A DNA stretch of 12,325 bases from positions 1-12,325 of the forward strand of contig DAOVMD010000044.1 of assembly GCA_030630935.1 (NCBI GenBank). The letters are read 5' to 3'. The position numbers and the translations under genes are program-made. The notes under the pieces were generated by a model that saw only the letters and a list, made by a program, of their open reading frames with translations, did not search any database and was not told the origin of the DNA. The stretch comes from Candidatus Mcinerneyibacteriota bacterium. Lineage in GTDB: Bacteria; AUK180; JAQVHJ01. This document shows positions 10,931-12,325 of this stretch, piece by piece (within the stretch, counting starts at the first letter, position 1; each line of letters opens with the position of its first letter).

Positions 10931-11890
10931 TTAATCTCCATGTTCCCTATTTTCTATTAACTCTAATATTTTTTCTGCATGTTCACGAATTACTTTGTTC
11001 TTTTCAGTTTCAATAATATCTTTTAAAACTTTCTTTAATCTTTCGATTTTATCATCTCTATTATATCCTTCGTCTTTTTCAAAAAAGTTCAACGAACATA
11101 TTAGTACTTTTTCTGAATACAGTGATCGATTTTCTAGAATTTCAAGCATCATATCATATAATTTAGGTGCTTTATAACATAAATGCACAATTAAAAATTG
11201 AACTGATTCAAAAAGTTCAGGATCATTGTTTGACAATATATCAAATACATAGTATATCTTTTCTTCTCTTTCTTCACAATATGTCCATGCGTCAAATGCT
11301 GACCATTTTATTTCAATATAGTTTTCTTTATTTAAAAAGATATTTATTAATGTATCCAACGTTTTTATCCGATTTTTATTTGAAAATGGTAATCTCTTAT
11401 TTTTTATATCCATTAATCGATTACTTATTTCAAACAACCATAGAAGTTTTAATTTGTCATTTGAATTTTCAAGAATTGGTAATATTTTATCTGAAACAAT
11501 CTCTTCATTCGTATAATCCTCTTCCCATTTAATAAGTAATTGAGATTTAGCAACAGAAACAATATGAAATTTAATTAAATCATCTTTATCATGAATATTT
11601 GATTTTGGTCTTTTAAAAAAATATCTTTCATCTAACTGCTCTGATAAATAGTTTTGAACATAAATATATTCTTCCTCATTTAAATTAGAAGATTTAATAA
11701 CTTTCTTTATTTTATTAAACTGTTCTTCAGTGAACGTATTACTGTATAGTTTACCTATCTTTTTTATAAATTTATTAACTTTTCTCTTGTTAACATTTGG
11801 ATTATAAAACTTATCTTGTTTAGCACAACCGGTAAGGAGAAGTATTATTAAAATTAAAATCGTTAAAATGTTTAATGTGGTTCTTCTCAT
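10931..11890 (-). CDS. Predicted lipoprotein with helical-repeat-like domain, function unknown
   Basis: The 319-residue precursor has a clear type II signal peptide. MRRTT is followed by a hydrophobic run and the lipobox LTGC, with Cys22 as the lipidated residue. Ala at +2 would, by the enteric rule, favour sorting to the outer membrane. The mature part is rich in Lys, Glu, Asn and Ile and looks almost wholly alpha-helical. Helix pairs toward the C-terminus (for example VIREHAEKILELIEN) recall HEAT or similar solenoids, but I cannot name a family. Translation starts at an ATG with AAGGA seven bases upstream, about 75 bases below a consensus promoter (11971-11999). It is the first gene of an operon with the secreted propeller-like protein, suggesting that the two meet at the cell envelope. 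The pair is more AT-rich by eye than the central genes, which may mark separate origin. Confidence 0.8.
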   Translation of the reverse strand: MRRTTLNILTILILIILLLTGCAKQDKFYNPNVNKRKVNKFIKKIGKLYSNTFTEEQFNKIKKVIKSSNLNEEEYIYVQNYLSEQLDERYFFKRPKSNIHDKDDLIKFHIVSVAKSQLLIKWEEDYTNEEIVSDKILPILENSNDKLKLLWLFEISNRLMDIKNKRLPFSNKNRIKTLDTLINIFLNKENYIEIKWSAFDAWTYCEEREEKIYYVFDILSNNDPELFESVQFLIVHLCYKAPKLYDMMLEILENRSLYSEKVLICSLNFFEKDEGYNRDDKIERLKKVLKDIIETEKNKVIREHAEKILELIENREHGD

Positions 11891-11916
11891 TTTTCTATCC
11901 TTAATTCATTTTCCAT
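11887..11916 (-). CDS. Possible 9-codon leader ORF
   Basis: MENELRIEK ends in TGA that overlaps the lipoprotein ATG as ATGA. A strong GGGAGG (11944-11949) lies upstream, but it is too far from this ATG. A TTG in the same frame, nine bases beyond GGAGG, would fit better and lengthen the peptide to 14 residues. It may couple translation to the lipoprotein gene. Chance occurrence is plausible. Confidence 0.15.
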   Translation of the reverse strand: MENELRIEK

Positions 11917-11970
11917 TTGAGATTCTTTCAATTTTTGGTAATTCCTCCCAAAGTCTAATTGATTTAATTA

Positions 11971-11999
11971 ATTATATAATATAATGTTTAAAATGTCAA
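11971..11999 (-). promoter_or_regulatory. Sigma-70 promoter of the lipoprotein operon
   Basis: On the minus strand TTGACA (11994-11999), a 17-bp spacer and TATAAT (11971-11976) match the consensus exactly. The predicted leader is about 75 bases and contains a strong GGGAGG motif (11944-11949) that is not next to an ATG. Confidence 0.85.
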
Positions 12000-12020
12000 T
12001 TAAAATCTTTGATTCCTACT

Positions 12021-12272
12021 GAAGCAAGGGAATTTATTCCCTTTATATTTCGTAGGCCATGGTTTTAACCATGGTATTATTTATCGCACCCACACCCGGG
12101 ACTTCAGTCCCATTCTCAAGCAACTCCGTTGCTTGAACTGAGAATAGATATCAGAGAACAGAGAGCAGAATTTCCCATAATGGGACTGAAGTCCCGCTTA
12201 TGTTGGGGGGATTTAACACCCGGGTTGAAACCCGGGCCTACGAGATATATAAAGAAGCAATAAATTGCTTTG
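12021..12272. repeat. Palindrome array: two inverted copies of a three-palindrome element
   Basis: At least seven short palindromes with 2-3 bp centres follow one another. They are AAGGGAATttATTCCCTT (12026-12043), CCATGGTTttAACCATGG (12057-12074), GGGACTtcAGTCCC (12098-12111), CAAGCAACtccGTTGCTTG (12117-12135), GGGACTgaAGTCCC (12182-12195), CCCGGGTTgaAACCCGGG (12219-12236) and AAGCAATaaATTGCTT (12255-12270). The left three and, on the other strand, the right three align as one element: an AATTTATT-centred stem, TTTATAT, CGTAGGCC, a second stem, a spacer, then GGGACTTCAGTCCCATT. Between copies the stems differ by paired changes that keep the palindrome. No gene lies in 12001-12325. REP/BIME-like mobile or structural repeats are the nearest known analogy. 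Confidence 0.8.
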
Positions 12273-12325
12273 TTTTCGGGGACGGACCTTGCATTTTGTT
12301 GCAGTATTATGTTTACTTCATATGG

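Follow-up and report, generated by a model that had tools for sequence, protein, structure and literature searches.

Near one end of the window, by which we mean the whole of the 12,325-bp contig C29, two inverted elements (12026-12111 and 12182-12270) have linkers and loops in common and differ in their palindrome stems. The question raised by this locus is how both arms of a stem could change with the palindrome being preserved. A preliminary description proposed compensating changes, to be explained by selection on structure, by a hairpin-recognising transposase of the REP/RAYT kind or by template switching. According to the analysis reported here, the window very likely contains a head-to-head heterodimer of two GTAG-tagged REPs, that is, a composite of the BIME/REPIN type.

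Anatomy of the inverted element

The element is located between a minus-strand ORF starting at 11890 and the end of the contig, in an assembly of 3.16 Mb and 471 contigs. The arms of the inverted repeat (12032-12114 and 12179-12261) show 72% complementarity across 83 nt, and in a search against the genome the window matches its own reverse strand with an E value of 2e-10, confirming the two colinear inverted copies with common linkers initially described. Each half presents, in order, hp1 (GGAATTTATTCC or GCAATTTATTGC), a short AT linker, GTAG, hp2 and hp3 (GGGACTTCAGTCCC), the loop being TTTA in the outer hairpin hp1 and of two bases, TT or TC, in the palindrome hp2 (Table 1). The stems are also as first described, AAGGGAATTTATTCCCTT versus AAGCAATTTATTGCTT and GCCATGGTTTTAACCATGGT versus GCCCGGGTTTCAACCCGGGT, with palindromy kept in all of them. 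The tag GTAG stands unpaired directly before both hp2 palindromes of the window, and the stretch CGTAGGCC, reported as kept between the copies, is composed of this unpaired tag and the first bases of the stem. Using DNA energies, the 252 bp fold as single-stranded DNA with -62.2 kcal/mol versus -23.9 +/- 3.6 in dinucleotide shuffles (z = -10.7). No listed ORF of at least 80 aa is present in these 252 bp, which would be expected to hold a TnpA of their own in an IS200/IS605 insertion sequence.

Table 1. Features of the inverted element and its immediate surroundings (window coordinates).
Feature	Position	Strand	Basis or remark
Neighbouring sigma-70-like promoter, perfect TTGACA-17-TATAAT	11971..11999	-	~20 bp from the REP element, upstream of a lipoprotein-like ORF (10931-11890)
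hp1, left (Z-type) half, palindrome AAGGGAATTTATTCCCTT	12026..12043	+	sequence, hairpin in fold, terminator-like scan match
GTAG tag, left REP	12052..12055	+	the same in all 54 copies of the pattern-selected alignment
hp2, left REP palindrome GCCATGGTTTTAACCATGGT, loop TT	12056..12075	+	sequence and fold
hp3 GGGACTTCAGTCCC, left half	12098..12111	+	sequence; present in other copies too
Centre, copy of a different high-copy repeat, CTCAAGCAAC-TCC-GTTGCTTG hairpin and AGAGAACAG-type tract	12108..12168	.	genome matches
hp3 GGGACTTCAGTCCC, right half	12182..12195	-	sequence
hp2, right REP palindrome GCCCGGGTTTCAACCCGGGT, loop TC	12218..12237	-	sequence and fold
GTAG tag, right REP	12238..12241	-	sequence
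hp1, right (Y-type) half, AAGCAATTTATTGCTT	12255..12270	-	sequence and fold
Fragment resembling the RAYT gene of contig C338 (same genome) at its 3' end and flank; outside the REP proper	12279..12321	-	93% over 42 nt, 100% over 33 nt to L044

Copies of the repeat and paired stem changes

An exact pattern comprising the tag and the inner stem finds 16-17 GTAG-palindrome copies in the window genome and 57 in one genome of the same family, with no match in the 58 other genomes compared and none for a reversed-pattern control. A first pattern modelled on the window gave no match among genome contigs; a looser one matched 32 stretches of MAG STE_202 (JAQVHJ01; taken as the same-family genome) and one in Flavobacterium, and viral contigs searched with the pattern gave none. 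With a covariance model, 54 matches in the window genome and 104 in the same-family relative are obtained at E <= 1, and 99 copies at E <= 1e-5 in the sampled DNA of both genomes, their assemblies being fragmented and incomplete (80% for the window genome and 72% for the relative). The palindromes have stems of 8-9 bp in six Watson-Crick types and a TT, TC or TA loop. Also, GTAG is the commonest 4-mer beside GC-rich palindromes in the window-genome DNA sampled around elements (19 cases for 113 palindromes). ORFs of 120 aa or more make up 77% of the DNA on the contigs of the relative, yet 67 of 70 copies there fall outside them.

The named structure is paired in 92.6% of the cells among 54 pattern-selected copies, which were picked by a pattern fixing the inner stem and gave rise to the model that collected the 99. 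The covariation score is 0.291 for the 54 copies (0.093 when shuffled, at most 0.041 for slid structures) and 0.280 for the 99 (0.097 and at most 0.045, respectively), a score computed without R-scape, with shuffles that leave in the relatedness among copies and a model that leans to its own structure. The covariation check proposed for the collected copies was thus passed. For example, pair 45/76 is GC in 39 copies, CG in 24 and AU in 7, and pair 46/75 is UA in 47, AU in 12 and GC in 12. Among 88 complete hp2 stems, 69 are Watson-Crick (6 types), 7 have wobbles (6 types) and 12 have a mismatch (12 types); every one of the mismatched types is single-copy, and five of the six Watson-Crick types are multi-copy. 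The unpaired tag and the loops stay constant across copies while the stems change. The preliminary description had named, as outcomes contrary to its reading, a lack of further copies or unpaired changes as frequent as paired ones; 99 copies exist, and unpaired changes occur, none of them in multiple copies.

By definition, a REP combines a GT(A/G)G tag with a palindrome, placed after it, whose composition varies (PMC3686654). The 24 families of the GTAG-tagged REP super-family (Di Nocera et al. 2013, PMC3733652) are described with TY loops, alternative complementary stems, G-T pairs and heterodimers having different stems. The present repeats have all these features, together with an unpaired GTAG at the end, a perfect stem adjacent to it, an intergenic location and the head-to-head arrangement of the heterodimers; they differ in the TTTA-loop outer hairpin beside each tag and in being almost absent from convergent-gene locations. 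In Stenotrophomonas (S. maltophilia), cleavage by TnpA_REP depends on GTAG, on a loop base and on a stem without breaks; exchanging stem bases for their complements has a modest effect, whereas mismatches and changes in GTAG or the loop are tolerated less (Corneloup et al. 2021, PMC8266576). There, too, a perfect palindrome follows GTAG directly, and the rule that tag, loop and pairing outweigh stem bases predicts the pattern seen here; the loop of the present family has two bases and not three. Moreover, Bertels and Rainey (2011, PMC3116915) report that REPINs often carry compensatory changes. Together, the published REP definition, the stem variants, the TnpA_REP rules and the REPIN compensation predict the pattern observed. 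The repeats probably form a new family within a known class, the GTAG REPs, and their paired stem changes, though genuine, are of the kind expected in that class. Points against this explanation include the extra hairpins of these halves, which simple REPs are without, a gene context unlike that reported for other REPs, and the lack of a RAYT gene flanked by this family in either genome.

These repeats are most likely non-autonomous mobile DNA, in which GTAG and the hairpin, when single-stranded on the lagging strand, would be recognised by a RAYT-type HUH transposase (TnpA_REP). Recognition would proceed via the tag, the loop and an intact stem and not via the base sequence of the stem, so stems may drift while both arms stay paired. 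The RAYT would act in trans, and selection on the stems would work through it. In this regard, the copies amount to a naturally occurring collection of stem variants in which tag and loop stay constant, in agreement with the published rule for REP transposases that the paired stem and not its sequence matters, and they extend the GTAG-tagged REPs to an uncultured bacterial family.

The gene context of the elements, a small sample (n = 27), is divergent in 11 cases, same-direction in 15 and convergent in 1; the first two counts are near those that spacer length in these loci would predict, and convergent sites are lacking. An enrichment in divergent spacers (11/27) was considered and dropped because of this closeness to expectation. 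For other REPs, a bias to convergent and same-direction contexts is reported. The same counts argue against a structured cis-acting RNA, in which the composite would be transcribed, with its hairpins in leaders, attenuators or terminators of the neighbours, and RNA function would generate the covariation. The strong single-strand fold and the G-U type wobbles would suit such an RNA, as would the predominance of 5' ends among the gene ends facing elements (49/72, binomial p 0.003) and the four terminator-like matches, versus 0.7 in shuffles. However, half-elements lie in either orientation and form both inverted dimers and tandem repeats of 56-58 bp, no Rfam family reached its cut-off, and the promoter of the window neighbour is placed between element and gene and reads away from the element, making this alternative improbable.

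Between the main stem types, stepwise intermediates are found. One series leads from CCCAGG/CCTGGG through CCCGGG/CCTGGG, with a G-T wobble, to CCCGGG/CCCGGG, and another from CCGTGG/CCACGG through CCATGG/CCACGG to CCATGG/CCATGG. Because these wobble and one-arm intermediates link the main types, template switching, in which a polymerase would use one arm as the template for the other so that both change at once without selection, is not needed as a cause, contrary to what the preliminary description had contemplated. It would explain some stem types two or three pairs apart for which no intermediate is seen (CCATGTCT/AGACATGG), but arm copying alone leaves the constant loops and the unpaired tag without explanation, and we regard it as very improbable.

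Y and Z halves in inverted pairs

In the BIMEs of E. coli, REPs fall into Y and Z classes. Here, the copies are Y or Z according to hp1, which is CAATTTATTG in the former and GAATTTATTC in the latter; both classes are present in both genera. In the relative, hp2 is mostly CCCAGG or CCCGGG in Y copies and mostly CCGTGG in Z copies. This tie is looser in the window genome, in which CCCGGG or CTCGGG stems adjoin left parts of the Z type, suggesting an exchange of modules.

There are 27 inverted pairs, and all 26 that could be classified combine one Y with one Z, the other being unclassed. Most gaps measure 107-110 bp, and a second, longer group spans 162-209 bp. Tandem arrays of Z units, one every 56-58 bp, are present as well, and half-units also occur alone. 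The window pair obeys the Y/Z rule, with Z on the left, Y on the right and a gap of 143. Since it follows the heterodimer rule of both genera, the way in which the two window stems differ reflects their membership of two old partner classes and is not the outcome of recent local compensating mutations. The paired changes claimed at the outset hold across the 99 copies, where the covariation supports them, and the pair of local mutations in the window does not.

Compared with REPINs and BIMEs (PMC3116915; E. coli), the family is alike in its inverted REP doublets, mostly fixed spacing, tandem amplification and pairing of two classes, and different in a spacer that holds several further hairpins and in that no flanking RAYT was found. 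A miniature element of a DDE transposon, with the inverted halves as its terminal inverted repeats, is scarcely credible: the mirrored halves, the many copies and the intergenic insertion agree with it, but the halves differ systematically as Y and Z where identical ends would be expected, half-units are also found singly or in tandem, and the GTAG-tagged hairpins match REPs.

For the REP heterodimer, a functional Y/Z rule is a rather doubtful proposal, in which the mobilising enzyme would act as a dimer on two hairpins that have to differ, or the halves would be kept different by selection for separate folding, with the outer hairpin (CAATTTATTG / GAATTTATTC) as the class label. In the case of selection, folding of each half on its own would avoid a single long inverted repeat, which would be unstable. 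Of the results, the strict pairing of Y with Z is the one that most deserves biochemical testing.

A separate observation concerns a Y-type variant, recurrent in the long-gap dimers, with AATAGCACCAC after GTAGGC in place of the usual palindrome (L128 1461-1511, L114 3289-3339, L164 362-412 and others).

RAYT genes, other GTAG repeats and surroundings

RAYT-type transposase genes are present in both genomes, as sought from the preliminary description. None of those found in these incomplete assemblies is flanked by the Y/Z family, as the RAYT of a REPtron would be by its cognate REP, the RAYT loci giving weak model matches only (E 0.0025 and 0.014), so its mobilising enzyme is one that we infer: by analogy with known REPs, mobilisation by a RAYT is fairly probable. 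The earlier REP/RAYT-like reading is thus borne out as to the kind of element (GTAG tag, palindrome with a two-base loop, intergenic copies and inverted dimers), and no RAYT flanked by the family accompanies it.

Several RAYT genes are flanked by long inverted repeats, e.g. GGGGACGG, and resemble the published TIRtrons; these genes were considered as partners and rejected, there being no Y/Z REP at those places. Two GTAGGGGCGAACGG... hairpins are situated downstream of a RAYT gene of the relative (C179; L221 1471 and 1708), and one of the window genome (C326; L220 1-1200) is near GTAGGGGC hairpins. Both sets of hairpins are another GTAG REP family (GTAGGGGCG...CGCCC), whose stems vary too with pairing kept. 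Additionally, an IS200/RAYT-like gene of the window genome (C247; L045 480-1200) runs in its 3' part into a CTCCGTAGGAGCGATATCTTTGTAG-type repeat array, so repeats are read there as protein. A further GTAG repeat, GTAG-CCTGGGGTTTTAACCCTAGG with an internal G-T pair (L049, L050, L054, L060), is mostly found beside AGCCATTTATGGCT / AATCGTTTACGATT palindromes whose loops are always TTTA and whose stems vary.

With respect to the surroundings of the window element, the centre is the sole part covered by most of the 30 best genome matches. This centre repeat, in which the hairpin is followed by a AGAGAACAGATATCAGAGAACAGAGAGCAG tract usually ending in GTTTTATAG, stands alone at most of the best-matching places (L005, L007, L009, L011-L018 and others). 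Contig C462 of the window genome (L037 2526-2845) holds a 95-96% near-copy of window positions 11905-12325 minus the left REP and most of the centre, and this near-copy is a deletion or strain variant. Finally, a lysine-rich repeat protein that looks histone-H1-like is encoded on the minus strand of the window at 770-1213.
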